Positions 8,275-44,351 of a DNA stretch of 64,000 nt are shown one piece after another. The position numbers and the translations under genes were made by a program. The stretch spans positions 2,790,001 through 2,854,000 of the forward strand of contig NZ_CP097127.1 of the NCBI RefSeq assembly GCF_023330665.1. The letters run 5' to 3'. The notes beneath the pieces were generated by a model. It was not told the origin of the DNA, did not search any database, and worked only from the letters and a program-made list of their open reading frames with translations. Positions within the stretch are counted from its first letter, which is position 1. Every line of letters starts with the position of its first letter. The stretch is from Conexibacter sp. S30A1. GTDB taxonomy: Bacteria > Actinomycetota > Thermoleophilia > Solirubrobacterales > Solirubrobacteraceae.

Positions 8275-8987
8275 ACGTAACCCGCGGTGCGCTTGCGGCG
8301 CTCGCTGTGCTGATGGTTGCCGCCGGGTGGGCACGGGCGGCCGAGGGTCGTGGCCCGGCGCAGGCGCGAGAGCGGCTCGTGCCCCTGTCCGGCAGGAGCT
8401 TTGCGATCGACTGGGAGAAGGTCCGCCTCCCGGGCGCCGACATAATCCCGCCGGGCGCGAGCGCGCGCTGCGCGATGAAGCCCTCCGAGGAGAACAAGCT
8501 GCGGGGTGTGGCGGTGTACTACTTCTCAGCCGGCCGGCAGGACTTCGCGGTGCTGCCGGCCAGATGCGCCGCTCTCAACCAGAGCCAGGAAAACTTCTTC
8601 CTCTATGCGCTGGGGCGCCATCGCAGGCCGAGGCTCCGGGAGGTCATCTACCAGTCAGAGGGAGCGGCCACTGGGTTACTGACGCGCTCGGTTACCACCG
8701 CGGCCGTGGCGGCCACCCGCCCTCACAGCTGGTCTGGGTGGTTTGAGTGGGCCAGCCCTACTCTCGTCGGCGCGTCGAAGGTGCCGGCTGGCACCAGGGG
8801 CGTCGAGCTCACCGGCTCGCAGCTGATCATCCGTGGGCTGGTGATTCCGGTCGGTGGTCACCTGCCCGACCCCGCCTACAGCTTCCGGGGCCTGGAGCTC
8901 GGCGCCTACATCTTCACCTGGCGTGACGGCCTGTTTCGCTACGTGCGCGCAACCGCGGGCGCGCCCCCGGCGCGCCCGGCGCGTTAA
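8265..8987 (+). CDS. Exported protein of unknown function, partner of the preceding gene
   Basis: 240 residues from GTG 8265, with AAGGTGATG about 10 nt upstream. Signal peptide RGALAALAVLMVAAGWARA, then a domain with SFAIDWEKVRLPGADIIPPG, VAVYYFSAGRQDFAVLPARC, HSWSGWFEWASPTL and RGLELGAYIFTWRDGLFRYV. Two cysteines in the exported part (the ARCAM and PARCAAL segments) could form a disulfide. No family recognised. Its TAA stop shares four bases with the stop of the opposing methyltransferase gene, so the two transcripts end on top of each other. Confidence 0.62.
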   Translation: MRLNVTRGALAALAVLMVAAGWARAAEGRGPAQARERLVPLSGRSFAIDWEKVRLPGADIIPPGASARCAMKPSEENKLRGVAVYYFSAGRQDFAVLPARCAALNQSQENFFLYALGRHRRPRLREVIYQSEGAATGLLTRSVTTAAVAATRPHSWSGWFEWASPTLVGASKVPAGTRGVELTGSQLIIRGLVIPVGGHLPDPAYSFRGLELGAYIFTWRDGLFRYVRATAGAPPARPAR

Positions 8988-10426
8988 TCCCCGAGCTCGA
9001 TGCGACGGCGGTCGACGAACTCCTTGAGCTCGTCGCGGACCGCGTCATCCAGTGGCGGCGGCTCGTAGGCCGCCAGCTTCTCGGGCCAGATCTCGGCGGC
9101 GCGGGCGGTCGCGTCCTTGCTGCCGCGACGACTCCAGCGGTCGAAGTTGTCGGTGCTGGACAAGAGCGGCCGGTAGAAGCAGTCGCGGAAGCGCTCGAGC
9201 GTGTGGGCGGCGCCGAGGAAGTGCCCGCCGGGCCCAACCTCGGTGTGCGCGTCGAAGGCGAGCGCCGCATCGTCAAAGACCACCGGGGTGAACTCGTGCC
9301 TCAGCTCGCGCAACAGCTCGATGTCGACGATGAACTTCTCATAGCAGGAGACCAGGCCGCCCTCGAGCCAGCCGGCCGAGTGCATCACGAAGTTCGCGCC
9401 CGCAAGGAACGTCGGCAGCATAGTCATCAGCGACTCGTACGCCGCCTGGGCATCGACCACGGTCGAGGAGTTCAGAGCGCCGCCACCGCGCCAGGGCAGG
9501 TTGAAGTGCCGGGCGATCTGGCCTGTGCAGAGCACACCGATACCCGACTCGGGCGTACCGAACGACGGTGAGCCCGACTGCATGTCGGTGTTTGACAGAA
9601 ACGAGCCGAAGACCACCGGCGCGCCCGGCCGGATCGTCTGCGCCAGCGCGATCCCGGCAAGCGCCTCGGCCATCTGCTGGGTGAGCGTGGCGGGCAGCGA
9701 CACCGGTGACATCGCCCCCATCAAGAGAAACGGGGTGATCACCACGGCCTGGCCGGCCTTGACGTACTCGACCATCGCCGAGAGCATGCGGTCGTCGTAG
9801 CGCAGCGGCGAGTTGACGTTGATCAGGCTGATCGACACCGGCGCGCGCTCGATCGCCTCGCGCCCGCCGAACAGGATCTCGCCCATCCGGATCGTGTCGG
9901 CGGCGTTCGGACCGCTGGTGACCGAGCCCATGTACGGCTTGTCGGTCAGGGTCTGCAGCGCATAGACCATGTCCAGGTGGCGTGAGTCAAGCGGGCGGTC
10001 CTCCGGCTCGCAGATCGTGCCGCCCGGCGAGTCGAGCTCGTCGAAGATCTGGCTCAGCTTGGTGAGGTTCTCAAAGTCGGCCATCTTGGCGTCGCGGCGC
10101 ACCTCGCCCTCGCGCACGAACGGGCAGCCGTAGACGGGCGCAAAGGCCATGTTGTCGCCGCCGATGGTGAGCGAATGGGCGGGGTTGCGGGCCTGCAGCT
10201 CGAACTGGGAGGGGGCCTTGGCGACCTGCTCGAGGATGAACTCGGGGTCGAAGCGGACACGGTTCTCGTCCTCGACGATCTGGCCGGCTGAGCGCAGGAC
10301 CTCGACCGCCTCCGGCAGCAGGAACTCGATTCCGATCTCGGAGACGATCCGGCGCCAGCCGCGGTCAAGCACGGCCATCGCCTCCTCGCTCAGGATCTCG
10401 TAACGGGGCATTGAGTTGACGAACAT
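8984..10426 (-). CDS. MttB-family corrinoid methyltransferase (non-pyrrolysine)
   Basis: 480 residues, close to trimethylamine methyltransferase MttB (about 500), with no in-frame TAG, so it belongs to the pyrrolysine-free branch that includes glycine betaine methyltransferase MtgB. Typical segments are MPRYEILSEEAMAVLDRG at the start, GGDNMAFAPVYGCPFV, YALQTLTDKPYMGSVTSGPN, VSISLINVNSPLRYD, LLMGAMSPVSLPATLTQQ and GAPVVFGSFLSNTDMQSG. It would move a methyl group from a quaternary amine or similar substrate to the corrinoid protein encoded at 11296. ATG 10411 is an alternative start. It is divergent from the IclR gene with only 24 bp between start codons, so one short region controls both. Confidence 0.85.
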   Translation of the reverse strand: MFVNSMPRYEILSEEAMAVLDRGWRRIVSEIGIEFLLPEAVEVLRSAGQIVEDENRVRFDPEFILEQVAKAPSQFELQARNPAHSLTIGGDNMAFAPVYGCPFVREGEVRRDAKMADFENLTKLSQIFDELDSPGGTICEPEDRPLDSRHLDMVYALQTLTDKPYMGSVTSGPNAADTIRMGEILFGGREAIERAPVSISLINVNSPLRYDDRMLSAMVEYVKAGQAVVITPFLLMGAMSPVSLPATLTQQMAEALAGIALAQTIRPGAPVVFGSFLSNTDMQSGSPSFGTPESGIGVLCTGQIARHFNLPWRGGGALNSSTVVDAQAAYESLMTMLPTFLAGANFVMHSAGWLEGGLVSCYEKFIVDIELLRELRHEFTPVVFDDAALAFDAHTEVGPGGHFLGAAHTLERFRDCFYRPLLSSTDNFDRWSRRGSKDATARAAEIWPEKLAAYEPPPLDDAVRDELKEFVDRRRIELGD

Positions 10427-10450
10427 GATTGGTGTCGTATCCTACACGCC

Positions 10451-11299
10451 ATGGAACTGGAGTTTCAAGTCGGGTCCGCGGTGGCGGTCGAGGCGCCGGA
10501 CGAGATGGCGCCGGCAGGTGTCGAGACCCCGTCGGCGGGCACGACCGCGATCGATCGCGGCGCCGACCTGCTGGTGCGCGTGCTGGAGTCCGAGCAGCCG
10601 GTCGCGGTGAGCGACCTGGCGAGTGCCGCCGGCCTGCCCAAGAGCACCGCCTCCAGGCTGCTCTCGGCGCTCGAGCGCCGCGGCCTTGTCACCCAGGACG
10701 GCGAGCGCGGGCGCCTGCGCCCCGGACCCGCGATCCTGCGCGTCGCCGAGCGCGGCATGCTCGAGCGAAACCTGGTGGAGATCGCCCGCCCGGTGCTGGC
10801 GGCGCTCTCCGAGCACACCGGCGAGACGATCAACCTCGGCGTTCCCGGCGCCGGCGGCGTCGAGCACCTGCTGCAGGCCGACGGCCGCCACTTCCTGGGC
10901 AGCGGCCAGTGGGTCGGCCGCACGGTCGACTTTCACGCGAGCGCCAACGGCAAGGTGTTCCTCGCGTATGGGCGCGCGCTGGCGCCCGCTGGCGCAAGCG
11001 CGCTAACCGCCTACGCCCCCGCGACGATCACCGATCCCGCCGCGCTGCGGGCCGATATCGAGCGCGTGCGCCGCACCGGCTACGCGGTCGCCGTGGACGA
11101 GCTGGAGGTTGGCCTGGCAGCGGTGGCCGCGCCCGTGCGCGGGGTCAGCGGCGAGGTGGTGGCGGCGCTCAGCGTAACCGGACCGACCGTGCGCATGACG
11201 CCGGCACGGATCGGCGAGCTGGCGGCTGTGTTGGTCAAGGAGTCGGGCCGTCTCAGCGCCCGGCTTGGATACATCGAAGGAGGAGCAAGCGCGGCATGA
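10451..11299 (+). CDS. IclR-family transcriptional regulator
   Basis: 282 residues. N-terminal winged helix-turn-helix about 37-95: IDRGADLLVRVLESEQPVAV, SDLASAAGLPKSTASRLLSA, LERRGLVTQDGERGRLRPG. Ligand-binding domain about 110-275 with ARPVLAALSEHTGETINLGV, GRTVDFHASANGKVFLAYG, GYAVAVDELEVGLAAVAAPV and GEVVAALSVTGPTVRMTP. An internal ATG at 10505 could also serve as start. It heads the corrinoid operon (ATGA overlap with the next gene) and faces the mttB-type gene, so it is the obvious local regulator, responding to a pathway substrate. Confidence 0.9.
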   Translation: MELEFQVGSAVAVEAPDEMAPAGVETPSAGTTAIDRGADLLVRVLESEQPVAVSDLASAAGLPKSTASRLLSALERRGLVTQDGERGRLRPGPAILRVAERGMLERNLVEIARPVLAALSEHTGETINLGVPGAGGVEHLLQADGRHFLGSGQWVGRTVDFHASANGKVFLAYGRALAPAGASALTAYAPATITDPAALRADIERVRRTGYAVAVDELEVGLAAVAAPVRGVSGEVVAALSVTGPTVRMTPARIGELAAVLVKESGRLSARLGYIEGGASAA

Positions 11300-11961
11300 C
11301 CGACGAAGAGATTCTGCAACTGCTGTATGAGGAGACGCTCACCGGCAACGCGCCGGCTGTGGCGGGCGGTGTCAACGACGGGCTCGCCCAGGGTATGCCC
11401 CCCGAGTCGATGCTCTTTGACGCGCTGATCCCGTCGCTTGAAGAGGTCGGCGCGCGGTTTGAGCGCGGCGACTACTTCGTGCCCGAGATGCTGATCGCCG
11501 CCCGTGCGATGCAGGGCGCCCTTGACATCCTGCGCCCGCTGCTGGCCGACAACGAGTCGGCCCAGATCGGGACCTTCCTGATGGGCACGGTCAAGGGTGA
11601 CGTGCACGACATCGGCAAGAACCTCTGCAACATCATGCTCGAGGGCGCCGGCTTCAACGTGATTGACCTGGGTGTCAACGTGCCGCCGGAGAAGTTCATC
11701 GAGCAGATCGAGGAGCACCAGCCCGATGTGGTCGGCTTCTCGGCGTTTTTGACGACGACGATGCCGATGTTCAAGGCCAACATCAACGCGCTTGAGAAGG
11801 CGGGCCTGCGCGACCGTGTGATCGTGATGGTCGGCGGCGCCCCGGTCACCCAGGAGTACGCCGACGCGGTCGGCGCCGACGGCTACGCGGCCGACGCGTC
11901 GACGGCGGTGCGCAAGGCCAAAGAGCTGATCGAGCTCCGGCGCGAGAAGGTGCTGGTCTAG
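11296..11961 (+). CDS. Corrinoid (B12-binding) methyltransferase protein
   Basis: 221 residues. Residues 1-85 form the helical cap (EEILQLLYEETLTGNAPAVA, EEVGARFERGDYFVPEMLIA), followed by a Rossmann-like B12 domain with the lower-axial-ligand motif GDVHDIGKNL (D-x-H-x-x-G, His near residue 107), then VIDLGVNVPPEKF, VGFSAFLTTTMPMF and VMVGGAPVTQEYADAVGADG. This is the MtbC/MttC/MtgC class that shuttles a methyl group on Co. Its ATG overlaps the IclR stop (ATGA) and the next gene follows without a gap. Confidence 0.93.
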   Translation: MTDEEILQLLYEETLTGNAPAVAGGVNDGLAQGMPPESMLFDALIPSLEEVGARFERGDYFVPEMLIAARAMQGALDILRPLLADNESAQIGTFLMGTVKGDVHDIGKNLCNIMLEGAGFNVIDLGVNVPPEKFIEQIEEHQPDVVGFSAFLTTTMPMFKANINALEKAGLRDRVIVMVGGAPVTQEYADAVGADGYAADASTAVRKAKELIELRREKVLV

Positions 11962-12828
11962 ATGGACACGGTTCTGCGCTCGCGCACAAAGACGGTTGTG
12001 ATCGGCTCGGACAAGCCGTTCTGCATCATCGGTGAGCGGATCAACCCGACCGGCCGCAAGGTCTTCGCCCAACAGCTGCGCGACGGCGATCTGTCGACTG
12101 CGGCGGCCGACGCCCAGGCTCAGGTCGCCGCCGGTGCCGACATGCTCGACGTCAACGCCGGCATCCCGCTGGTCGACGAGGCCGAGCTGCTGGTCAAGCT
12201 GATTGGCCTGGTGCAGGACACGGTCGACGCGCCGATCTGCATCGACTCCTCGGTGGTGGAGGCGCTGGATGCCGGGCTCTCGGCCTACGAGGGCCGGGCA
12301 CTGGTCAACTCTGTCACCGCCGAGGACGATCGCCTCGAGGCGGTGCTGCCGCTGGTGGCAGCGCACGGCGCCGCCGTGATCGGCCTGACCAACGACGAGA
12401 CCGGCATCCCGCACACGGCCGAGGAGCGCCTGCGCCACGCGCGCAAGATCGTCTCGGCCGCCGCCGATTACGGGATCGAGGCCTGCGACGTGGTGATCGA
12501 CCCGCTGGCGATGCCGGTGGGCGCCGACACCGAGGCGGTCGCCAACACCCTTCAGGCGATGCGGATGATCCGCGACGAGCTCGGTGTGAACATGTGCGTC
12601 GGCGCCTCAAACGTCTCCTTCGGGTTGCCGGACCGCCTGACCCTGAACGCCGCGTTTTTGCCGATGGCGATGGCCGCCGGCCTGACTTCGGCGATCATGT
12701 CCACCGCCGATGTGGTGGTGCGCAGCACGCGCGCCGCCGACCTGCTGCTCGGGCACGACGAGTGGGGAGCGAGCTGGATCGCCGCACACCGCGCGCGCCA
12801 GGCTGCGGTGGAGGCGACCGCTTCGTGA
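11962..12828 (+). CDS. Methyltetrahydrofolate:corrinoid methyltransferase (pterin-binding)
   Basis: 288 residues forming one pterin-binding TIM barrel of the dihydropteroate-synthase fold: FCIIGERINPTGRKVFAQQL, AAGADMLDVNAGIPLVDEAE, DAPICIDSSVVEALDAGL, ALVNSVTAEDDRLE, CDVVIDPLAMPVGADTEAV, VGASNVSFGLPDRLTLN. Same class as AcsE and MtgA, which transfer methyl between corrinoid and THF. Here it would pass the methyl from the corrinoid protein to THF, feeding the MetF encoded nearby. Its first base follows directly after the corrinoid gene's stop. Confidence 0.9.
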   Translation: MDTVLRSRTKTVVIGSDKPFCIIGERINPTGRKVFAQQLRDGDLSTAAADAQAQVAAGADMLDVNAGIPLVDEAELLVKLIGLVQDTVDAPICIDSSVVEALDAGLSAYEGRALVNSVTAEDDRLEAVLPLVAAHGAAVIGLTNDETGIPHTAEERLRHARKIVSAAADYGIEACDVVIDPLAMPVGADTEAVANTLQAMRMIRDELGVNMCVGASNVSFGLPDRLTLNAAFLPMAMAAGLTSAIMSTADVVVRSTRAADLLLGHDEWGASWIAAHRARQAAVEATAS

Positions 12829-14738
12829 GCGCCTCCGCGCAGCGGGCAGCACGGCTGCGGCGGGCGGCACGCGGGGATCAGGAGGACGCGGGCGAGCCCG
12901 ACGACGGCGCCGGGCGCGTACGCCTGCGCTTCCAGCCCGAGGGCGCCGAGGTGCGCGTGCCGAGCGGCACGCCGGTCTTTGACGCCGCCACCTGGAACGG
13001 GATCGCGATCGACTCCACCTGCGGCGGCTACGGCACCTGCAAGAAGTGCAAGGTGCGCGTGGTCTCCGGCGAGCTGCCCGTGGGGCCGATCGACCCGCGC
13101 GCGTTCAGTCCCGCGGAGCTGGCCGACGGCTGGCGCCTGGCCTGCCGGGCGATCGCCCGGGAGGACCTGGTTGTGGAGGTGCCGCCGCTGCAGACCCGCC
13201 CCAAGGCCGCCCTGGCCGGGGTCGGTCGCCATGTCATCCTGCGCCCGTCGGTGCAGAAGCGCCACCTGGTGATGGACGAGCCGACGCTCGAGGATCAGCG
13301 CTCGGACCTGCAGCGCGTGCTGGACGCGATCGAGGATCTGGAGCCGACCGCGTCAGTGGCGCTGCTGCGCTCCCTGGGGGGCACGCTGCGCTCCTCGGGC
13401 TACGACGTGACGGCCGTGGTCGTGGATGAGGAGCTGATCGCCGTCGAGCCCGGCGACACCACCGCACGCCGCTTCGCGATCGCCTTTGACCTCGGCACCA
13501 CGACGGTGGTGGCGACGCTGCTCGACCTCGACTCCGGCCAGCCGCTGGCGGTGCGCTCGATGCTCAACCGCCAGCAGCCGTTCGGCGCCGACGTGATCAC
13601 GCGCGTGTCGGCGACGATGATGGAGCCGGAGGCCCTGGGCCGGTTGCAGGAGCTGGCCCACGCCTCCTTTGCCGAGCTCACCGCCGAGGTCTTGGCCGAG
13701 GCCGACGTGGAGCCGCACGAGGTCTACGAGATCACGGTCTGCGGCAACCAGACGATGATGCAGCTGGCGCTCGGCATCGACCCGGAGCCGCTGTCGATGG
13801 CACCGTTCGTGGTCGCCACAAACAGCTTCCCGTCCACCCGCGCCGCGGACTTCGGGGTGGCGATCCACCCGCTCGCGCACGCCTACGTCTTCCCGTCGCT
13901 GGGCGCCTACGTCGGCGGTGACATCGTCGCCGGCCTGCTTGCGACCGGCATGACACGCGACCAGCGCCTGCGGCTGTTCATCGACGTCGGCACCAACTCG
14001 GAGATCGCGCTGGGCTCAAACGAGCGCGTGCTGGCGACCGCCGCGCCCGCCGGGCCGGCCTTTGAGGCGGCGCAGATCCGCTGCGGCATGCGCGCGGCGG
14101 AGGGCGCGATCGAGGGCGTCAAGATCAAGGACGACGCGCTCACGCTGCAGGTGATCGGCGACGTCGAGCCGGTTGGGCTGTGCGGGTCGGGCGTGGTGGA
14201 CGTGGTCGCCGAGCTCGTGCACAACGGGCTGCTTGACCATTCGGGACGGTTCGCCGAGGCCGAGGCGGTGGCTGCCTCGGGCCGGCCGCAGCTGGCGCAG
14301 CGCTTTGCGATGATCGGCAAGGAGCGCGTCTTCATCCTGCACCCGCGCGGCGACGGCCCCGAGGACTCGGTCTTCATCTCCCAGCGCGACGTGCGCGAGC
14401 TGCAGTTCGCCAAGGCCTCGATCGCGACCGGCTGGCAGCTCCTTCTGCGCGACCTCGGCGTCGAGGCCACAGATATTCAGCAGGTGCTCCTGGCGGGCAG
14501 CTTCGGCGCCTACCTGACGCCGCTATCAGCGGTGCGGATCGGCCTGGTGCCCAAGCTCGCGCTGCCACGGATCATCTCGGCCGGGAACGTCGCCGGGGAG
14601 GGCGCGAAGATCGCCGCGCTCTCGGCCCGTGAGCGCGCCGAGGCGGACGCGATCGTGCACGAGGTCAAGTACGTCGAGCTCTCCGGGCGCACGGACTTCA
14701 ACGACCTGTTCATCGACCAGCTGTCGTTCCCGGGGTGA
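12825..14738 (+). CDS. Ferredoxin-ASKHA corrinoid activation protein (RamA-like, DUF4445)
   Basis: 637 residues from GTG 12825, overlapping the previous stop as GTGA. A basic N-terminal tail is followed by a [2Fe-2S] ferredoxin domain (about 25-125) with CGGYGTCKKCKVRV supplying three cysteines and LACRAIA a fourth. A linker leads to the ASKHA ATPase-like part: FAIAFDLGTTTVVATLLDLD, VTVCGNQTMMQLALGIDPEP, LFIDVGTNSEIALGS, GLCGSGVVDVVAELV and QVLLAGSFGAYLTP. Such proteins use ATP and low-potential electrons to return accidentally oxidised Co(II) corrinoid to Co(I). It serves the corrinoid protein two genes upstream. Confidence 0.9.
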   Translation: MSASAQRAARLRRAARGDQEDAGEPDDGAGRVRLRFQPEGAEVRVPSGTPVFDAATWNGIAIDSTCGGYGTCKKCKVRVVSGELPVGPIDPRAFSPAELADGWRLACRAIAREDLVVEVPPLQTRPKAALAGVGRHVILRPSVQKRHLVMDEPTLEDQRSDLQRVLDAIEDLEPTASVALLRSLGGTLRSSGYDVTAVVVDEELIAVEPGDTTARRFAIAFDLGTTTVVATLLDLDSGQPLAVRSMLNRQQPFGADVITRVSATMMEPEALGRLQELAHASFAELTAEVLAEADVEPHEVYEITVCGNQTMMQLALGIDPEPLSMAPFVVATNSFPSTRAADFGVAIHPLAHAYVFPSLGAYVGGDIVAGLLATGMTRDQRLRLFIDVGTNSEIALGSNERVLATAAPAGPAFEAAQIRCGMRAAEGAIEGVKIKDDALTLQVIGDVEPVGLCGSGVVDVVAELVHNGLLDHSGRFAEAEAVAASGRPQLAQRFAMIGKERVFILHPRGDGPEDSVFISQRDVRELQFAKASIATGWQLLLRDLGVEATDIQQVLLAGSFGAYLTPLSAVRIGLVPKLALPRIISAGNVAGEGAKIAALSARERAEADAIVHEVKYVELSGRTDFNDLFIDQLSFPG

Positions 14739-15334
14739 GCCGGGTTGCGGTGATCGCCTGCGGCGCGCTGGCGCTCGACGTGCGCGCGATCAGCCGCGCG
14801 CGCGGCTGGGCGGTCGACCTCTACCCCGTCCCGGCGCCGCTGCACAACCGCCCGGCGCAGATCCCGGACGCCGTGCAGGCCGAGCTCGAGCGGCTCGAGG
14901 GCGAGTATGACCGCGTGCTCATCGCCTACGGCGACTGCGGTACCTACGGCGCGCTCGATCAGCTGCTCGAGCGCCACGAGGGGATCGAGCGCCTTCAGGG
15001 TGATAGCTGCTACGACGTGCTCGCGCGCGAGGAGGTGCGCGCGGCGCTCGAGGAGCAGCCCGGCACCTACCTGCTGACCGACTTTCTGGCCCGCACCTTC
15101 GAGCACACGGTCGTGCGTGAGCTGGGGCTTGACCGTCACCCCGAGCTGCTCGGCGACTACTTCGGCAACTACACGCGCGTGCTGTGGCTGGCGCAGCGCC
15201 GCACGCCCGCCAACCAGGCCGCGGCGGAGCGCGCCGCGGCGCGGATCGGCCTGCCGCTGGAGGTGCTCGAGGTGGGCAACGCCGGGCTTGAGCGTGCGCT
15301 CGAAACGGCGCTCGCCGGTGCGGTGAGGGCCTGA
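14735..15334 (+). CDS. DUF1638-domain protein
   Basis: 199 residues from GTG 14735, again with a 4-base stop/start overlap. Motifs VAVIACGALALDVRAI, LHNRPAQIPDAVQAELERLE, VLIAYGDCGTYGALDQLL, GDSCYDVLAREEV and GTYLLTDFLARTFE are those I associate with DUF1638. Cys residues in ACGAL, GDCGT and DSCYD together with conserved histidines would suit a metal or cofactor site. It is the last gene of the IclR-corrinoid operon; biochemical role unknown to me, but its place suggests service to corrinoid methyl transfer. Confidence 0.75.
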   Translation: MSRVAVIACGALALDVRAISRARGWAVDLYPVPAPLHNRPAQIPDAVQAELERLEGEYDRVLIAYGDCGTYGALDQLLERHEGIERLQGDSCYDVLAREEVRAALEEQPGTYLLTDFLARTFEHTVVRELGLDRHPELLGDYFGNYTRVLWLAQRRTPANQAAAERAAARIGLPLEVLEVGNAGLERALETALAGAVRA

Positions 15335-15498
15335 GCGCCGATCCCGGTTATTGATCGCTAACCCTTATGGCTTACGAGCAATATCCGTATTGGACATATC
15401 AATCGCTGTGACCGATGATCCATCCGTGAACTCTTCGACGCCGCCGCGGGACGCGCCCGGGCGGCGGGCGAGCCAGAGCTTCATCTCTCTCCTCTCTG
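15335..15498. other. Spacer between convergent operons
   Basis: Non-coding. It is notably AT-richer than its surroundings around 15345-15425. Nothing gene-like was found before the hairpin at 15499. Confidence 0.35.
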
Positions 15499-15533
15499 GC
15501 CGGGGCCGGCGCCCGAAGGGCGCCGGCCCCGGC
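15499..15533. terminator. Bidirectional hairpin terminator between convergent operons
   Basis: A perfect 16-bp stem (left arm 15499-15514, right arm 15518-15533) closed by a GAA loop, all G/C. The arms sit in a further weak CTCTC/GAGAG pairing. No long T-run follows on either side. Placement between the DUF1638 stop and the stop of the ligM-like gene supports termination in both directions. Confidence 0.7.
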
Positions 15534-15553
15534 GGCTCAGGGAGAGCGCCCGC

Positions 15554-16978
<1,425 letters not shown>

Positions 16979-16981
16979 TTA

Positions 16982-17010
16982 TTGCATGCAGCTAGCGCCA
17001 TTGTATGCAA
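16982..17010. promoter_or_regulatory. Paired TTGCATGCA boxes upstream of the ligM-like gene
   Basis: Boxes TTGCATGCAG (16982-16991) and TTGTATGCAA (17001-17010) with starts 19 bp apart, in the 73-bp gap between purU and the ligM-like start. The same box pair at the same spacing lies upstream of metF (19528-19556). Two turns of helix separation suggests a dimer-of-dimers operator for a common regulator. Confidence 0.6.
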
Positions 17011-17030
17011 GGCCAACGGCCCGCGGCGGC

Positions 17031-17888
17031 TCAGAAGACGATCGTGCGGTGGCCCTGCAACAGCACGCGGTCATCCAGATGCCAGTTGACCGCGCGGGCG
17101 AGCACCGTGCGCTCGACGTCCGCGCCGATCCGTTCGAGCTCACCGGGCCCCTCGCGGTGGGTGACGCGGATCACGTCCTGCTCGATGATCGGACCCTCGT
17201 CGAGGTCCTCGGTGGCGTAGTGCGCTGTGGCGCCGATCAGCTTCACGCCGCGGTGGTGGGCGCGCAGGTACGGGCCCGCGCCGGCGAACGCCGGCAGGAA
17301 CGAGTGATGGATGTTGATCACCGGGCAGCCGATCCGCCGCAAAAAGTCGTCGGAGAGCACCTGCATGTACCGGGCCAGCACGATCAGCTCGGCCTCGCCA
17401 CAGAGCAGGTCGATCTGCGCCCGCTCGGCGTCTGACTTGGTCTCCTTGTTCACCGGTATGTGGTGGTAGGGAACGCCGAAGCGGGCCACCTCGTCGCGCA
17501 GATCGGGGTGGTTTGAGACCACGGCGATCACGTCCATCCCGAGCTCGCCGCGACGCCAGCGCCACAGCAGGTCGAGCAGGCAGTGGTCGTAGCGCGAGAC
17601 GAACAGCGCCACCCGCTTGCGCCGGCGCGCGTCGACGAGGCGGTAGTCGAGCTCCAGCTTGGAGCCCAGCTCCGCCAGGCGCTGCTCGAGCTGCGCCAGC
17701 CGCTCGTCCGGGTTGGGAACGTAGAACTCCATACGCAGCGAGAAGCTGCCGCCGTAGGGGTCTGATGAGAACTGGTCGGAGGTGATGATGTTGGCGCCCA
17801 CATCCGCCAATGCGCCCGACAGCGAGGCGACGATCCCCTCGCGGTCGCGGCAGGAAACGAGCAGCCTGGCGACGTTCGATCGGCTCAT
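17031..17888 (-). CDS. purU: Formyltetrahydrofolate deformylase
   Basis: 285 residues, matching PurU (about 280). ACT domain about 1-85 (LVSCRDREGIVASLSGALAD), then the formyltransferase-like domain with VALFVSRYDHCLLDLLWRW, DVIAVVSNHPDLR and PYHHIPVNKETK. The catalytic trio is visible: N and H in VINIHHSFLPAF and D in YATEDLDEGPIIEQD. It hydrolyses 10-formyl-THF to formate and THF, freeing THF for further methyl acceptance. It lies 2 bp after the metF stop on the same strand, so they are co-transcribed. Confidence 0.93.
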   Translation of the reverse strand: MSRSNVARLLVSCRDREGIVASLSGALADVGANIITSDQFSSDPYGGSFSLRMEFYVPNPDERLAQLEQRLAELGSKLELDYRLVDARRRKRVALFVSRYDHCLLDLLWRWRRGELGMDVIAVVSNHPDLRDEVARFGVPYHHIPVNKETKSDAERAQIDLLCGEAELIVLARYMQVLSDDFLRRIGCPVINIHHSFLPAFAGAGPYLRAHHRGVKLIGATAHYATEDLDEGPIIEQDVIRVTHREGPGELERIGADVERTVLARAVNWHLDDRVLLQGHRTIVF

Positions 17889-17890
17889 CT

Positions 17891-19468
17891 TCAGTGCTTC
17901 CCCCTGTCCGGCCCCGTGTCGGCGGTGCCGCTGTGCTTGGCGTTGTGGTCACGACCCAGGAACGTGTTGGCCCAGGCGCTCGTGCCTCGCAGCGCGTTGT
18001 TCTTGATCACCACCGGCCCGTCGACGAGGCCGTCCTCCTCGCCGTAGGCCTTGAGCCGTTCGTAGGCCTGCGCCCAGATGCACTCGCTGTCATAGACCTC
18101 GCAGAGGCCGTCACGGGTGCCGCCGCAGGGGCCGTTGCGCTGGTTCTTCGCGCACGGTCCCTCCGGGCAGACGTAGGCGATGTCCGGCAGCGAGCAGTCG
18201 CCACAGTCCTGACAGCCAAACATGGGCACCTTCACCGCCTGCTCGAACGCGTGCGCGACGCGCCTCAGTCCGGGCGAGGATTGCTCGAGCTGCCCGTAGA
18301 CGCGCGTGCCGACCCCGAACAGCGGGGCGTCCTGGGCGAAGAGCGCGTTGTGCATCACGCGGCTCAGGCGGTAGCGGGCTGGGACCTTCAGGTCGGTGCG
18401 CCGCTTGCGGCGGCTCTCCAGGTACTCCTCGCGCTCGATGCCGTTCGATAGGCCCGTCTGCTCGTCGCGCCCGTAGAGGTAGAACTCCCCGGGCCGCCCG
18501 TAATGGATCTCGCGTGCGGCCTCGCGCCACTGATCGCCTGAGATCGCGGCGGCGCGCTCGAGGATCTCCACGTAGGTGTCGATCGGCATGTGCCCGCCCA
18601 GGTAGGCGCCCGCGAAGCCCATGCCGCGGGCTACCGCGACCTGCTTGGCGGCGAAGTCGACGAAGAACTCGCGGCCGCGGTCAGCTCCGGCCCCGTGGTG
18701 CTCGGCGAGAGCCAAAAGCTCGTCGGAGACGACCACGCCCGGGATGCGGCCCGCGTGGAAGACGCGTGCCACCCCACGCGTCAGCAGATAGACGTTGGCG
18801 ATCAGCTTCACCGGCAACCCGCGCGCCTGCGTCCAGAGCAAGAGCTCGCTGTCCTTGCGGGCGTTGAACCCCACCTGATTGATCGCAAACGACGCCCCCG
18901 CCCGCACCTTCTTCTCGAGTTTGAGGTACTGCGGCATCACCTCGCGCTCGTGCAGCTTGTGGTTGGTGACCACACAGCCCAGAAAGAAGTCGGTCTGCGC
19001 CAGGCGGCCGTCCGGCGCGCGCGCCTCCTCGACACCGGCGTTCATGTCGGCAAGCAGCTTCAGCAGCCCGACCGAGTCGATGTCGAAGACCGGTGCCGCC
19101 GTGCCCGACTGGCCCGCCACCGGATAGTCGCCGGTCAGCGCCAGGATGTTGTTCAGGCCGGCCGAGGCCGCCTTCCACGCGCGCGACTCGATGCCGTTGC
19201 GGTTCATGTCCTTGCACGCGAAGTGCAGGATCACCTCCTGGCCCAGCTCGCGCATGCGGTTGGCGAGCATGTCCGGCGCGATCATCGGATTGCCACCGGG
19301 GTTGTCGGTCAAAGACACCACATCCACCTGCGGACACTCGGCGAGCTGCTGGGCCAGGTCCCAGACCTGCTGGCCGTCACGCTGCTCGAGCACGCCGCGG
19401 CTCGTCACAAGCTCCGCGGCGATCACAAACGCCTCCGGCGCAGCCAGGCTCTCGCGCAAACTCCCCAT
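17891..19468 (-). CDS. metF: Methylenetetrahydrofolate reductase with C-terminal Cys-rich domain
   Basis: 525 residues from ATG 19468, with GGGAGGG upstream. Residues about 1-310 form the MetF TIM barrel: AAELVTSRGVLEQ, VDVVSLTDNPGGNPMI, ILHFACKDMNRNGIESRAW, ILALTGDYP, FAINQVGFNA. The C-terminal 200 residues are the MTHFR C-terminal domain, with a cysteine cluster FGCQDCGDCSLPDIAYVCPE and PCAKNQRNGPCGG that probably binds metal or Fe-S. In C1 catabolism it would run toward methyl-THF oxidation to methylene-THF. Similar long MetFs accompany ligM-type genes. A box pair at 19528-19556 lies upstream. Confidence 0.92.
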   Translation of the reverse strand: MGSLRESLAAPEAFVIAAELVTSRGVLEQRDGQQVWDLAQQLAECPQVDVVSLTDNPGGNPMIAPDMLANRMRELGQEVILHFACKDMNRNGIESRAWKAASAGLNNILALTGDYPVAGQSGTAAPVFDIDSVGLLKLLADMNAGVEEARAPDGRLAQTDFFLGCVVTNHKLHEREVMPQYLKLEKKVRAGASFAINQVGFNARKDSELLLWTQARGLPVKLIANVYLLTRGVARVFHAGRIPGVVVSDELLALAEHHGAGADRGREFFVDFAAKQVAVARGMGFAGAYLGGHMPIDTYVEILERAAAISGDQWREAAREIHYGRPGEFYLYGRDEQTGLSNGIEREEYLESRRKRRTDLKVPARYRLSRVMHNALFAQDAPLFGVGTRVYGQLEQSSPGLRRVAHAFEQAVKVPMFGCQDCGDCSLPDIAYVCPEGPCAKNQRNGPCGGTRDGLCEVYDSECIWAQAYERLKAYGEEDGLVDGPVVIKNNALRGTSAWANTFLGRDHNAKHSGTADTGPDRGKH

Positions 19469-19527: not shown

Positions 19528-19556
19528 TTGCATGCACCAGGCTAGGTTGCATGCAA
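19528..19556. promoter_or_regulatory. Paired TTGCATGCA boxes upstream of metF-purU
   Basis: TTGCATGCAC (19528-19537) and TTGCATGCAA (19547-19556), starts 19 bp apart, 60-88 bp upstream of the metF start. They have the same sequence and spacing as the pair before the ligM-like gene. Confidence 0.6.
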
Positions 19557-31386: not shown

Positions 31387-32501
31387 ATGAGTAGTGCCAC
31401 GGGATTAGGCGGTGTAGTCGACCAGCGCGCGGGTGGGGCGGCCGAGTTCGTGGTTGAGCATGACGGCGGCGGCGAGGGCGGCGAAGCGTGCGCATAGGCG
31501 GACGCGGAGGTTGGAGAGGGTGCGCGCGCCGTGGCGCTCCAGGGTGAGGATGTCTTTGAAGGTCCAGAAGATCGATTCGATCCGTTGGCGGATCGGCGCG
31601 AGATGCAGCTGGTGGGGTTTTGCGTGGGTGCGCCGGGGCTGGGGAGTGATCTCAGAGGCCGGTCGGAGCGCCGGGGTCGATGCTGCCGCGGTGCTGGCGG
31701 CTTGACGCTTCTCGTCCTTGCGACGGGGACGGTGGATCGTCGCGTCGAGCTCAGCGAGCTCGGCCTCGAACTCCTTGCCGCGGAAGTTCTTATCGCCGAT
31801 CAGCATCAGCATCACCCCGGGCTGGCGCTCGCACCGCGCGACCATCTGCAGGCACACGAGCTTCTCGTCGATCTTCGGGGAGGTCAAAGCCAACGCCCGC
31901 GGGGTGCCGTCGGGGGCGAACAGGGCGTGCAGCCGGAATCCGTAGAAGTAGCGGCTGTGGCTGGCGCAATACCCGTAGTCGGCGGCGTTAGCGAGCGCGT
32001 CAGTCAGGCTGGAGTGCCCGCCGCGCTTGACCGTCTCCCGCGATCGGGCGCACTGCACCGGGGTGGAGTCGACCAGCAGCATGTCGTCCATGTATCCCGC
32101 GCTGCGGCGGGCGAGCTCGCTGATCAGCGCCTCGATCTGCCGCGAGAGCCGCAGCCGTCGCTTGTGGTAGGCGGTTCGCTCCGGCAGGTGGGGGAACAGA
32201 TGCCCGATCTGCCGGGGCGCGAGCGCGAGGAACCGATAATCGGACGGGATCCCCATGATCGACTGCGCGATCGAGATGGTGATGATCTCCGCATCAGTGA
32301 TCTTCCGACGCGCGTTTCCGGGCCGTTGAGGCAGGAAATCGTCAACGATGCAGTAAACAACCGTAAGCAGCAGGTCGAGGTTGGCGTCCATCGAGTCCCT
32401 CCACAGGGTCGGCGCTGGGTATTGAGTACCGCCAACTTCGACCTGCGCTGTTATGTCTCCTTCAACGCCACGACCCCGCCGCCGGCCGTGGCACTACTCA
32501 T
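31387..32501 (-). mobile_element. IS982-type insertion sequence
   Basis: Inverted ends ATGAGTAGTGCCACGG at the left (from 31387) and its complement at the right (to 32501), flanked on both sides by CTAG (31383-31386 and 32502-32505). Because CTAG is itself palindromic it may be target duplication or part of a 20-bp inverted repeat; the exact edge is therefore ambiguous by 4 bp. One transposase gene fills it. It sits between the cytochrome b stop codon and the LuxR regulator start. Confidence 0.75.
31405..32391 (-). CDS. IS982-family transposase
   Basis: 328 residues. Typical DDE blocks: DDMLLVDSTPVQCAR (first Asp), LMLIGDKNFRGKEFEAELAE (second Asp, I-G-D-K motif), and QRIESIFWTFKDILTLERHG (Glu). 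The N-terminal helical part has ITDAEIITISIAQSIMGI. A low-complexity insert rich in A, T, P and S (about 230-255) lies before the Glu block. Full length and intact, so the element may be active. Confidence 0.85.
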   Translation of the reverse strand: MDANLDLLLTVVYCIVDDFLPQRPGNARRKITDAEIITISIAQSIMGIPSDYRFLALAPRQIGHLFPHLPERTAYHKRRLRLSRQIEALISELARRSAGYMDDMLLVDSTPVQCARSRETVKRGGHSSLTDALANAADYGYCASHSRYFYGFRLHALFAPDGTPRALALTSPKIDEKLVCLQMVARCERQPGVMLMLIGDKNFRGKEFEAELAELDATIHRPRRKDEKRQAASTAAASTPALRPASEITPQPRRTHAKPHQLHLAPIRQRIESIFWTFKDILTLERHGARTLSNLRVRLCARFAALAAAVMLNHELGRPTRALVDYTA

Positions 32502-37366: not shown

Positions 37367-39598
37367 TCACACTGCCTTTGCGTTCATGGGGGTGGTGTCG
37401 AACAGGGTGTTTTCGGCGTGTGGGACCAGTATTCGCAGGCCTTTTCGGCGTCCGTTGCGGACGTGGATGGCTTCAAGCTCGCCGCGCTTGACACGTTGCA
37501 ACACGGTTTGGCGGGAGACGCCGAGGGCGCGCATCGCGTCGAACATCGGTATGTATCCGGGTGGGGCGTCGTCGACGAACAGGGCGCGGAGCTGGTCGTT
37601 GACACGGATCCGCCATGGTGCGCCGGGGGTGTCCTGTTCGCCGCGGATGACCCCGTCGTGGAGCCAGCGGTGGATTGTGGAGGGTGCGACGCCGAGCTGT
37701 TCGGCGGCTTTGGCGATCGGGAGCAGCTCCCCGTCGGGCGGGTCGGTGGCTGGCTGGTAGGCGGGGATGTGGCGGTAGCGGCGCAGGCCGCCGACGATGA
37801 TCTGGGTGAACCGCTCGCCGGTGGCGGAGCGGCGGCCTTGGCGGTTGAGGATCCCGGCGATCGTGCCGTCGTCGTAGTGGGTCGCGAGGCGTGTGAGCAG
37901 TTCGATCGTGTCCTCGTCGGTGCGGATCGTGGGCTGGTGGCGTGGCAACGGGACCGTGAGCTCGGTGATCGCGCCGCCGTGCCAGCGGATCGTGACGGTC
38001 GCTTGGTCCTTGTCGCGGTCGACGTTGAGGATGACCTCCTCGATCAGGCAGCGGATCAGTTGTTTGCGGTCACGGTCACTGGTGGTTGGGGCGGACCACA
38101 CGCGCCCGAGGTCGGTGCCGAGCGCAAGCAGACCTTCGCGCTCTTGTTTGGTGAGGGTGCGCGGGTGTTGTTGCTGGCGCAACGCAAGCTCCGCCTCGGC
38201 TTTGGCGAGTTCTTGCAGCGCGCTCTCCCAGTCACGCTCCAGGCCGCGGGCGACGAGCCGGTTCTCAGGCTCGACCTGTCGGTAGCGGCGCTCAGCCTTC
38301 TCGGCCCGGTAGCGGGCTTGCTCGAGTTGCAGGCGCCACTGCTTCAGCGCGGCATCATGGTCGTGCTCGAGCGCTTCGGCCGCGATGATCGCGGCCTTCA
38401 CACCGGCTGGGGTGAGCGCCGCCAACAGCGCCCCGGCGACAGCCTGGTCGATCTGCATCCCGCCGACACGCATGCACCAGCTGCCGCGGTTCTCTACCAG
38501 GATGCTGGCGGGGCAGTGGTAGTTGGGGCGTTGCTGCCCGCGTTTGCCCTGGTAGTGGACCTTCAGTTTCCGTCCGCAGCGGCCGCACACAGCGATCCCT
38601 TGCAGCAGCGCTTGGCCTTCGCGGACCGCGCCGCCGGGCTCGTGCGCGCGCGGACGGGTGTTAGCGGCGATCCGCTCACGGTTTGCCTGGTAGGTGGCCT
38701 TGTCGATGTAGCCGGGGTGATGCTCCCAGATCAACACCCCCCATTCTGCCTGGGGAAGGCGACGCAACCGCTGACGTGTGTTGCCGTGCTCATCGACATA
38801 GCGCTCACGGCGGGTTTTCCCGAACGCGTAAGCGCCAGCATAAACGGGGCTCTCAAGCACGCTGTGGATCTGATGGTAGGTCGGGGTGACCCACCGCAGC
38901 TCGTCGTGCTCCCAGCGACGCAACGGGAACTTCACGCCCTCACGACGCATCCACAACCACACCTGGCGCACCGACCCGAGCTCAGCGAACCGGTCAAAGA
39001 TCGTCTGGATCGCACCACGGATCGCCTCGTCGGGATCGAGCAGAATCTCGCCTTCCTCCTCGCCCCAGATAAGCCCGACCGGCAGCATCTTGCGCAGCTC
39101 CCCCCGCTGGGCCTTGTTACGGATCCCGCCGTTCAAACGGGCCCTGAGGACGTGCAGCTCAGCCTCCGACATTGTGCCTTTCAGGCCGAGCAGCAGCCGG
39201 TCGTTGAACGAGCCGGGGTGATAGAGCCCGTCGCTATCACCGATCACGGTGTCGGTCACCCCACACAGGTCCAAAAGCCGGTACCAGTCAACGTTGTTGC
39301 GCGCCAACCTGGAGACCTCCAGGCCGAGCACCAGGCCGGCGTGCCCGAGCGCGACCTCCGCCGCCAGCCTGGCAAACCCGGAGCGGTCAGACATGCCGGA
39401 GCCGCTGATCCCGAGGTCCTCGTCGATCACGACGACCTGCTCGCGAGAGAACCCCAGCTCGATCGCGCGCTCAACCAGCGCGTACTGGCGGGCGGTCGAC
39501 TCCGTGTTGCGTTCCAGCTGCTGTTGAGAGGACTGGCGCAGATACACGAACGCCTGACGACCCAGATGCGAGCCGGTCAGCTTCTGACGCTCGCTCAT
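37367..39598 (-). CDS. Large serine recombinase with C-terminal HTH modules
   Basis: 743 residues. Resolvase domain (about 15-165): FVYLRQSSQQQLERNTESTA with the nucleophile Ser, VVVIDEDLGISGSGMSDRSG, LVLGLEVSRLARNNVDWYRL. Recombinase domain (about 180-330) with YAGAYAFGKTRRERYVDEHG, zinc ribbon near 355-395 (CGRCGRKLKVHYQG and a later Y-H-C plus Cys), and a long coiled coil (about 425-500). Unusual extras at the end are LPIAKAAEQLGVAPSTIHRW and PMFDAMRALGVSRQTVLQRV, two helix-turn-helix modules of the excisionase/MerR type, so integrase and directionality functions may be fused. ATG overlaps the preceding gene's stop. Confidence 0.9.
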   Translation of the reverse strand: MSERQKLTGSHLGRQAFVYLRQSSQQQLERNTESTARQYALVERAIELGFSREQVVVIDEDLGISGSGMSDRSGFARLAAEVALGHAGLVLGLEVSRLARNNVDWYRLLDLCGVTDTVIGDSDGLYHPGSFNDRLLLGLKGTMSEAELHVLRARLNGGIRNKAQRGELRKMLPVGLIWGEEEGEILLDPDEAIRGAIQTIFDRFAELGSVRQVWLWMRREGVKFPLRRWEHDELRWVTPTYHQIHSVLESPVYAGAYAFGKTRRERYVDEHGNTRQRLRRLPQAEWGVLIWEHHPGYIDKATYQANRERIAANTRPRAHEPGGAVREGQALLQGIAVCGRCGRKLKVHYQGKRGQQRPNYHCPASILVENRGSWCMRVGGMQIDQAVAGALLAALTPAGVKAAIIAAEALEHDHDAALKQWRLQLEQARYRAEKAERRYRQVEPENRLVARGLERDWESALQELAKAEAELALRQQQHPRTLTKQEREGLLALGTDLGRVWSAPTTSDRDRKQLIRCLIEEVILNVDRDKDQATVTIRWHGGAITELTVPLPRHQPTIRTDEDTIELLTRLATHYDDGTIAGILNRQGRRSATGERFTQIIVGGLRRYRHIPAYQPATDPPDGELLPIAKAAEQLGVAPSTIHRWLHDGVIRGEQDTPGAPWRIRVNDQLRALFVDDAPPGYIPMFDAMRALGVSRQTVLQRVKRGELEAIHVRNGRRKGLRILVPHAENTLFDTTPMNAKAV

Positions 39599-42661: not shown

Positions 42662-44351
42662 GTAGTCGCGCCCCGGGCTTGCCGGGGCGCGAGAACGTCC
42701 GCCTGAGCAGCGAAAATGTGGGTTACCACGCTCACGTTTCCGGTTCAGGAGGTTCACCCATATGGTGCAGCATGAAGGGCTGCTGGCAAAGGTAGATGTT
42801 CGGGCGGACGGCGCCGGTGTGGCGGGGCATGTCGGCAGCGCGCTTTTGGCTGGGGTGGCGGACCGGGTTGGGCTCACACGAGCGCTGTCTGTGGCGATGG
42901 CACCCAGTCGCCGGCGGCGCTCCGCGCACGACCCGGGGGTTGTTTTGCGTGATCTGGCGGTGATGCTTGCTGATGGCGGGGACTGTTTGGCGGATCTCGG
43001 CGCGTTTCGTGACCAGCCTGACCTGTTCGGGAACGTGTGCTCTGACTCAACAGCGTTTCGGGTGATCGACTCGATCGATCAGGAGTGTCTTGCCCGGTTG
43101 CGTGACGCGGTCGCGGTCGGCAGGGCCCGCGCGTGGGAGATCGGCGCAAGACCGGAGCGTTCACTGGCACGCTGGCATAACCGGCCGGAGCGGACCGTGA
43201 TCGACATCGACGCGTCGCTGACCACCGCGTACTCGGAGAAGGAGCAGGCGCACGGGAACTTCAAGGGCGGCTACGGGCATCATCCGCTGCTTGCGTACCT
43301 GGACGGGACCGGGGAGGCGCTCGCAGGGATCTTGAGGCCCGGGAACGCGGGGTCGAACACCGCCAGCGATCACAAGCAGGTTTTGGATCTCGCGCTTGCG
43401 CAGCTGGATGAGAAGGCGCTTGATGGGGAGATCCTGGTCAGGGCTGATGGTGCCGGCTCAACACATGAGCTGTGCGTTTACTGCCGTGAGGGTGATCTGC
43501 GGTTCTCGTTCGGGTTTGACCTCTCCCAGCCCGTTCGTGAGGCGATCATCGCGATACCTGAGAGCGCCTGGGAACGGGCGCTCCGTCGGGACGGAACAGA
43601 GCGCGAGCATTCCTGGGTGGTTGAGATCACCGATCATGTCGACCTCTCCGCATGGCCTGAGCGCTCCAGGCTGATCGCCCGTCGCACCACCCTTACAGAC
43701 GGTGATCAGCAGTCCTTCGCAGACCATGACGGCTATCGCCTGGCGGTGTTCATCACCGACCAGCAAGACGGCGACATCCGCCAGCTTGACCTGACCCATC
43801 GTGGCCACGCCCGGGTTGAGGACCGCATCCGCCAAGCGAAGGACTGCGGGCTGCGTAACCTCCCGTTCCGCCAGTTCGCCAACAACCAGGTGTGGCTCTG
43901 GCTCGTGATGCTCGCCCAGGACCTGATCGCCATAACCCAACAACTCTGCCTCAAAGACCAGGCACGTCGCTGGGAGCTCAAACGACTGCGCTACCGGCTG
44001 CTGCACCAGTCAGGCCGCATCAGCCGTCACGCCCGCCGCAGCGTGCTGAGACTCTCCGGCTCCTGGCCGTGGTCAGCACAGCTCGCCGCCGCGTTTGCGC
44101 GTCTGAAAGCGCTCGAAGCCCCCACGGGCTGACCCACGCGGCGCTGCTCAGCGCCACGGCCACCCCACCGACGATCACTCCCGCGACACCCCGGGCGTCA
44201 GCCTGCCCAAAAACAACACCCCACACCGCCCCGGGCACCGTGAGCGCGCCGAAAACCGATCCGTCAGCAGCCAAAGAGACCCCGCGCCACCCGCACCAAC
44301 GCTCCCGCGCCCCCCTGACAACCAACCCAGCCGCTTACTGCAAGATCGAGG
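42645..44351 (+). mobile_element. IS1380-family insertion sequence inside dppA
   Basis: Ends CCCGGATCTTGCATTAAG (from 42645) and, inverted, CCTCGATCTTGCAGTAAG (to 44351), an imperfect 18-bp terminal repeat with three mismatches. A 4-bp target duplication ATGG flanks it (42641-42644, 44352-44355). Length 1,707 bp with one transposase. Excision leaving one ATGG restores the dppA frame exactly. Confidence 0.9.
42762..44132 (+). CDS. IS1380-family transposase
   Basis: 456 residues, ATG 42762 behind AGGAGG. DDE-type blocks: RTVIDIDASLTTAYSEKEQA (first Asp), ILVRADGAGSTHELCVYC (second Asp), GHARVEDRIRQAKDCGLRNL (Glu), followed by NQVWLWLVMLAQDLIAITQQ. The N-terminal half has DPGVVLRDLAVMLADGGDCL and DSTAFRVIDSID. 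Full length and intact, so potentially active. The 219 bp after its stop inside the element hold no gene. Confidence 0.9.
   Translation: MVQHEGLLAKVDVRADGAGVAGHVGSALLAGVADRVGLTRALSVAMAPSRRRRSAHDPGVVLRDLAVMLADGGDCLADLGAFRDQPDLFGNVCSDSTAFRVIDSIDQECLARLRDAVAVGRARAWEIGARPERSLARWHNRPERTVIDIDASLTTAYSEKEQAHGNFKGGYGHHPLLAYLDGTGEALAGILRPGNAGSNTASDHKQVLDLALAQLDEKALDGEILVRADGAGSTHELCVYCREGDLRFSFGFDLSQPVREAIIAIPESAWERALRRDGTEREHSWVVEITDHVDLSAWPERSRLIARRTTLTDGDQQSFADHDGYRLAVFITDQQDGDIRQLDLTHRGHARVEDRIRQAKDCGLRNLPFRQFANNQVWLWLVMLAQDLIAITQQLCLKDQARRWELKRLRYRLLHQSGRISRHARRSVLRLSGSWPWSAQLAAAFARLKALEAPTG

Follow-up and report, generated by a model that had tools for sequence, protein, structure and literature searches.

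Gene Organisation of the Locus

In the genome of the actinobacterium Conexibacter sp. S30A1, a stretch of 64,000 nucleotides (NCBI RefSeq assembly GCF_023330665.1, contig NZ_CP097127.1, positions 2,790,001 to 2,854,000 of the forward strand; hereafter the window) carries, at positions 8984-19468, nine genes of methyl-group transfer and tetrahydrofolate (THF) metabolism, among them a corrinoid methyltransferase system of the MttB family and a demethylase of the LigM type. The genome is a single contig of 3.46 Mb, in which the cassette starts at 2.799 Mb. All nine open reading frames (ORFs) were confirmed by ORF calling together with Pfam profiles, counted above their gathering cut-offs, and NCBIfam models, judged against their own cut-offs; these searches bore out the nine genes, and the identities given to them, in an initial annotation made from the sequence alone. 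The Pfam domains found were MTTB (621 bits), IclR_C, HTH_IclR, B12-binding_2, B12-binding and Pterin_bind and, in the further genes, Fer2, three RACo domains, DUF1638, GCV_T (137 bits), Formyl_trans_N with ACT, MTHFR and DUF5981.

The nine genes are not a single co-directional run and they fall into two modules that converge tail to tail. In module 1, the MttB-family gene on the minus strand diverges from an IclR-family gene on the plus strand, which is followed by genes for a corrinoid protein, a pterin methyltransferase, an activase and a DUF1638 protein, and from IclR to DUF1638 each start abuts or overlaps the preceding stop. Module 2 lies on the strand opposite to DUF1638 in the order metF, purU, ligM, and positions 15335-15553 separate the 3' ends of DUF1638 and ligM. 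The features are as follows:

8984-10426, minus strand: MttB-family (non-pyrrolysine) methyltransferase of the MtgB clade, likely a glycine betaine:corrinoid methyltransferase (PF06253, tree, residues)
10451-11299, plus strand: IclR-family regulator, divergent from MttB and adjoining it in relatives too (PF01614, PF09339)
10452-10467, no strand: palindrome TGGAAC-N4-GTTYCA, a probable IclR operator (0 mismatches to TGGAACNNNNGTTYCA)
11296-11961, plus strand: corrinoid (B12-binding) protein, MtgC/MtbC-like, with a DVHDIG motif (PF02607, PF02310)
11962-12828, plus strand: pterin-binding methyltransferase (methyl-corrinoid:THF), MtgA/AcsE-like (PF00809, NF005719, 1f6y)
12825-14738, plus strand: corrinoid reductive activase with 2Fe-2S ferredoxin and RACo linker, middle and C-terminal domains (PF00111, PF17650, PF17651, PF14574)
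14735-15334, plus strand: DUF1638 protein, a probable corrinoid-activation partner (PF07796, 87 bits; present in relatives' cassettes)
15554-16957, minus strand: LigM-type THF-dependent aryl O-demethylase (NF047885, 5TL4, tree, residues)
16982-17010, no strand: twin element TTGCATGCA-N10-TTGTATGCA between purU and ligM (motif scan)
17031-17888, minus strand: PurU, 10-formyl-THF hydrolase (TIGR00655, 359 bits, cut-off 286)
17891-19468, minus strand: long MetF with an MTHFR domain and a C-terminal DUF5981 (MetV-like) domain (PF02219, 53 bits; PF12225, 88 bits)
19528-19556, no strand: twin element TTGCATGCA-N10-TTGCATGCA upstream of metF (motif scan)

We read the locus, with a probability of about 0.7, as two separately controlled methyl-entry modules placed tail to tail, an MtgB-type betaine route and a LigM route, both of which would lead to 5-methyl-THF.

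Promoter Elements of the Two Modules

The MttB and IclR starts are 24 bp apart (10426-10451), and the IclR ATG at 10451, which is the first start in frame, overlaps a conserved palindrome; the gene may be leaderless or its true start may lie further in. A -10-like TATCCT, located by eye a few bases before this overlap, would fit a leaderless IclR transcript. The palindrome, TGGAAC-N4-GTTCCA, occurs at all 19 IclR starts examined, comprising the window and 18 other loci (17 of them divergent, and L075, where it lies upstream of IclR); 11 copies are exact, seven, including that of the window, carry one mismatch and one (L078) carries two. When 38 stretches were scanned, every one of the 18 matches with at most one mismatch sat at an IclR start. 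In the window and its congeners the palindrome abuts or overlaps what appears to be the IclR start codon, and its conservation there could be coding-driven in part; in L075-L079 it is found upstream of the IclR start, whether called or matched.

A point that weighs against our reading of the locus is that TGGAACNNNNGTTYCA, allowing one mismatch, is not enriched in the genome, its nine forward and eight reverse matches comparing with 16 and 19 when the backward control was used, and only local control is therefore claimed; a wider IclR regulon was rejected as the genome-wide matches do not rise above chance. None of the pathway queries matched in the stretch (L236) that contains the only other exact palindrome site (2708168).

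Module 2 carries a different element, in which TTGCATGCA is repeated at a period of 19 bp; one such pair precedes metF and another precedes ligM. Allowing two mismatches, these are its only places in the genome; two further sites appear at three mismatches and the control gave 1 + 1. Two other stretches, L061 and L199, retain the pair at both genes, and L197 retains it at ligM, its contig not reaching the region upstream of metF; eight further LigM stretches from the genus do not have it. A single TTGCATGCAA lies between a gene for a GntR/FCD regulator and metF in L069, and this arrangement offers a lead to the regulator type of module 2. Within the window the cassette palindrome, with up to two mismatches, is not present upstream of metF or ligM, its nearest match to module 2 being a two-mismatch site inside the metF coding region (18756), and no match to the twin element lies at MttB/IclR. 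At the level of sequence, the different elements argue, short of proof, against a common control of modules 1 and 2, and this difference suggests that the modules are neighbours rather than a jointly controlled unit.

Linkage of the Modules across Genomes

The genus was surveyed in 28 genomes, including that of the window, with LigM counted above the model cut-off. LigM is present in 12 genomes, MttB in 16 and both in eight (G000, G216, G236, G304, G308, G309, G311 and G313), and evidence for linkage was obtained for three of the eight. In the window's own genome (G000) a single contig carries both modules. The LigM contig of G216 starts with the activase and DUF1638 genes; MttB lies on a second contig, the overlapping end of which is 87% identical and thus not the same. 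The LigM contig of G313 closes with a piece of DUF1638 4.5 kb from ligM. Few genes were called in the approximately 4.5 kb between ligM and DUF1638 in G313 (L102/L197). The other five genomes, all drafts, show no linkage, which counts against our reading of the locus: their LigM stretches, of 6.6-15.6 kb, carry no cassette gene save for a 36% IclR-family match in three. Among the best 80 of 138 named LigM loci, some of them on short contigs, MttB is absent throughout and DUF1638 occurs in two.

An alternative is that the locus constitutes one integrated methyl-catabolism island, in which the MetF and PurU of the LigM operon oxidise both methyl streams and the linkage has been selected. It gains from the partial linkage in G216 and G313 and from the neighbourhoods of 22 MttB-bearing stretches (the window and 21 contig stretches picked from class and genus searches), in five of which the cassette itself includes a MetF-type match (L075, L078, L079, L203 and L206), with purU beside the cassette in L203, while the window cassette has neither a MetF nor a purU of its own. 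However, the cassettes of G192 (L065) and G309 (L190) also lack MetF and no LigM adjoins them, a second MetF exists in the genome, the promoter elements of the modules differ and linkage is limited to the three genomes, and we consider such an island unlikely.

The initial annotation had described a compact one-carbon (C1) cluster that was unusual for an apparent actinobacterium. The genes are indeed adjacent, but two convergent modules with different promoter elements, linked in a minority of the genomes that carry both, do not amount to one unit, and the unusual quality extends to the linkage only and not to the parts, as MttB occurs in 72 of 299 genomes of the class and close relatives of LigM are found in many other Actinomycetota. 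A combination of LigM with betaine or MttB genes was not reported in those parts of the open-access literature that were searched. Treating both halves as one system is weakly supported, and their side-by-side placement is a lineage-specific arrangement of two known kinds of system.

LigM and the Folate Pathway

The LigM-like protein scored 835 bits against NF047885, the equivalog model for vanillate/3-O-methylgallate O-demethylase (cut-off 580), and 699 bits against 5TL4; an identity with DesA, the syringate O-demethylase, was rejected (NF047633, 575 bits against a cut-off of 800). A tree of 51 rows places it in a 28-row clade (support 100/99) together with SYK-6 LigM, to which it is 65% identical, far from the GcvT and DMGDH-type proteins of its own genome, and the earlier identification as LigM-like, for which a position in a non-demethylase GcvT group had been named as the refuting outcome, thus withstood the phylogenetic check. 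The catalytic positions, which we take to be Tyr247, Arg122, His60, Gln57 and Tyr29, are identical in the window protein and SYK-6 LigM (YQHRY). The enzyme is, as judged by these comparisons, probably a LigM with vanillate or 3-O-methylgallate as substrate. Among the matches listed, its closest records (98, 95 and 90% identical) are from metagenome-assembled genomes titled 'Actinomycetes bacterium' or 'Solirubrobacterales bacterium', and close relatives occur in many other Actinomycetota, for example Arthrobacter and Microbacterium. The genome also encodes a LigM/DesA-like paralogue (G000:C1:1004285-1005622; L072:9271-10629) which is 48% identical and has His at the positions of Tyr29 and Arg122.

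The genome has two MTHFR matches, one of which is the long MetF. The congener G314 has MetF followed by PurU, a FolD-type gene and LigM, the best model for the FolD-type protein giving 332 bits, below its cut-off of 421. In the betaine cassettes of L075, L078 and L079 the MetV-like protein and MetF are two ORFs, as opposed to the one fused gene of the window's LigM operon, and a MetF match is also seen in the cassettes of L203 and L206.

Neither folD nor a formate dehydrogenase gene had been seen in the window, and the check proposed in the initial annotation located both elsewhere: FolD at 878 kb, beside FchA and with both FolD domains above cut-off, and, at 3.425-3.43 Mb, the alpha subunit of a formate dehydrogenase (793 bits against a cut-off of 666) together with a partner of NuoE/F type. 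With FolD/FchA and an NAD-type formate dehydrogenase thus encoded, the gene set from methyl-THF to CO2 is complete on paper, the weak FolD match (61 and 58 bits) being a point against it. The earlier proposal of two methyl-entry routes into THF, with oxidation to formate, is accordingly supported at the gene level when the whole genome is considered, which also has genes for the step on to CO2.

Substrate of the MttB-Family Enzyme

The MttB-family protein is the sole PF06253 match in its genome and its gene has no in-frame stop. The initial annotation had left open amines or betaines as the methyl source; a trimethylamine methyltransferase of the pyrrolysine-containing MttB type was rejected, with 278 bits against a cut-off of 525 for TIGR02369 and no amber codon, and the betaine option was strengthened by both clade and gene neighbours. 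In a tree of 56 rows, with long branches elsewhere and with L224 and L229, on very long branches, left unused, the protein falls within a 43-row clade with D. hafniense MtgB (DhMtgB, 2QNE) and 4YYC, which is presumably a Sinorhizobium protein, with support 99/97 and apart from other rows of the class. A search of plasmids with MttB yielded 196 records, all below 60% identity, 121 of which were from Sinorhizobium.

Docking predicted Y94, N199, R309 and H345 of MtgB as betaine-binding residues (PMC6855144), and all four are kept in the window protein as Y99, N203, R313 and H349. The Asn, Arg and His are also present in some more distant MttB rows and the Tyr94 position is the more telling one; in the distant row L235 the residue of this column depends on the alignment (G in one and Y in the other).

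Gene neighbours were defined as of betaine-pathway type if they encoded BetA at >= 70% identity (query from L062), ALDH (query from L075), a DMGDH-type protein, ETF or a CCG Fe-S protein. All five partner genes of the cassette accompany MttB in 14 of the 22 stretches, DUF1638 being cut by the contig end in two; seven stretches end at a contig edge within the cassette and one (L204) has no pterin gene and ends within the activase. Betaine-pathway-type genes occur on 16 of the 22, and the six without them are the window, L063, L077, L192, L198 and L205, four of which are contigs shorter than 7 kb. The BetA proteins of L062, L065 and L075 exceed the TIGR01810 equivalog cut-off. In the window's own genome, SdaA (2.757 Mb) and CCG, EtfA, EtfB and a DMGDH-type gene (these four at 2.747-2.753 Mb) lie within 2.747-2.758 Mb, and ALDH and BetA (93% identical to that of L062) at 2.762-2.773 Mb, which places these genes 26-52 kb from the cassette. 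It is mainly because of these neighbours, in the relatives and in the own genome, that glycine betaine is preferred as the likely substrate over trimethylamine.

Several observations weigh against this assignment. MtgB (43% identical) and 4YYC (46%) are only distant relatives of the protein, the aromatic residue F353 of the modelled site is Gly in the window protein and likewise in 4YYC, and the tree was built without those characterised superfamily members that act on carnitine, proline betaine or choline. Furthermore, the GMC protein of L077 falls below the BetA (TIGR01810) cut-off, the ALDH of L075 reached 368 bits against 669 for the betaine-aldehyde model, and the DMGDH call is based on FAD and GCV_T domains, with no NCBIfam model naming the protein as such. 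The enzyme might instead demethylate a different quaternary amine, such as carnitine, gamma-butyrobetaine, proline betaine or choline, given that the MttB superfamily has members for such compounds (PMC8604678) and that the Asn, Arg and His of the site are shared more widely, but the BetA, ALDH and DMGDH-type neighbours suit glycine betaine and the protein clusters with MtgB and not with the other class rows used, so that we judge this alternative to be rather unlikely.

Partner Proteins of Module 1

Comparison with characterised families, as had been recommended earlier, succeeded for LigM and, by clade, for MtgB, and not for MtgC and RamA. The best NCBIfam model for the corrinoid protein, MtgC_2, gave 204 bits against a cut-off of 370 and a second MtgC model 157 against 310, both models being of type 'exception', which is a further point against the betaine route. 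The pterin methyltransferase exceeded the cut-off of NF005719 (316 bits against 259), together with PF00809 and a match of 148 bits to 1f6y. What had been annotated as a ferredoxin-ASKHA activase is an activase of the 2Fe-2S/RACo type, nearer to AcsV (405 bits, cut-off 800) than to RamA (TIGR04270, 122 bits, cut-off 500), with both cut-offs missed.

The AlphaFold model of the DUF1638 protein is confident (predicted local distance difference test, pLDDT, 90.6) and found no convincing fold match in the PDB (best E 1.5e-3, TM 0.30), and the sequence had no PDB match at E <= 1. DCG and CY motifs are invariant across 12 homologues. In Phaeobacter inhibens, an activase and a DUF1638 family member are needed for a split methionine synthase (PMC5764234).

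It is very improbable that module 1 acts chiefly as a split methionine synthase, a role that its roseobacter relatives have in part: the corrinoid and pterin proteins of R. pomeroyi do serve both betaine demethylation and methionine synthesis (PMC12478193), and a second homocysteine methyltransferase (290 residues) at 323 kb is a possible partner, yet the cassette has no homocysteine domain and is not obviously needed for methionine, since the genome has a two-part MetH (a 364-residue homocysteine protein and an 883-residue pterin/B12/activation protein) beside its own MetF at 2.943-2.947 Mb. The MetH at L093:4808-8579 is divided just behind its homocysteine domain, and the two resulting genes adjoin a standard MetF.

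Further along the window there are two DDE transposases and one large serine recombinase (31405-32391, 37367-39598 and 43062-44132), and a gene with the same start as the transposase at 43062-44132 sits just to the right of the window (L097:8441-9511).

Proposed Scheme and Relation to Known Systems

In the scheme of two modules, the MtgB-type enzyme would demethylate glycine betaine to dimethylglycine, loading the methyl group onto Co(I) of the corrinoid protein, and the pterin methyltransferase would pass it on to THF; cobalt that had lapsed to inactive Co(II) would be re-reduced by the 2Fe-2S/RACo activase, aided by DUF1638, and IclR would control the module via TGGAAC-N4-GTTCCA. LigM would transfer the methyl group of vanillate or 3-O-methylgallate directly to THF. 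From 5-methyl-THF, the product of both modules, MetF acting in the oxidative direction, FolD/FchA, PurU and the NAD-type formate dehydrogenase could carry the carbon to formate and CO2. An oxidative MetF has a precedent in Sphingobium SYK-6, where MTHFR oxidises 5-methyl-THF (PMC12585457). Going further, one Solirubrobacterales lineage might hold a dual-source methyl island, where betaine and lignin methyls are burnt via a shared fused MetF-MetV-like oxidase and PurU, a tentative idea that we regard as improbable.

Module 1 resembles the aerobic MtgBCD/RamA/DUF1638/MetF2 route of R. pomeroyi, established by proteomics and by mtgC and mtgD mutants (PMC12478193), in its pfam06253 enzyme, separate corrinoid and pterin proteins, activase, DUF1638 and an extra MetF. 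It differs in being a single compact cassette with an IclR gene, in a genome with a two-part MetH and in the phylum Actinomycetota. The MtgB-MtgC-MtgA system of D. hafniense (PMC6855144, PMC12478193) has the related MttB enzyme with the same predicted betaine residues, but that organism is an anaerobe and here the corrinoid protein falls below the MtgC models and the pterin protein matches an AcsE-type domain model. The activase/DUF1638 pairing is that of the split methionine synthase of P. inhibens, with its DUF4445 and DUF1638 proteins, although there it serves methionine synthesis (PMC5764234). Module 2 shares a LigM with a MetF partner with the ligM-metF-ligH operon of SYK-6 (PMC6888825), whereas here purU takes the place of ligH and MetF carries a DUF5981 domain; the SYK-6 regulator is DesR.

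Each half of the locus is of a known kind and no new biochemical principle is implied; the surprise is modest and the interest lies in actinobacterial C1 metabolism. The aerobic type of B12-dependent betaine demethylation would gain, from the Solirubrobacterales line of actinobacteria, a compact cassette linked to IclR, for which a checkable operator sequence is now supplied, and methyl groups from an osmolyte and from lignin methoxyls would be tied to one folate pathway.

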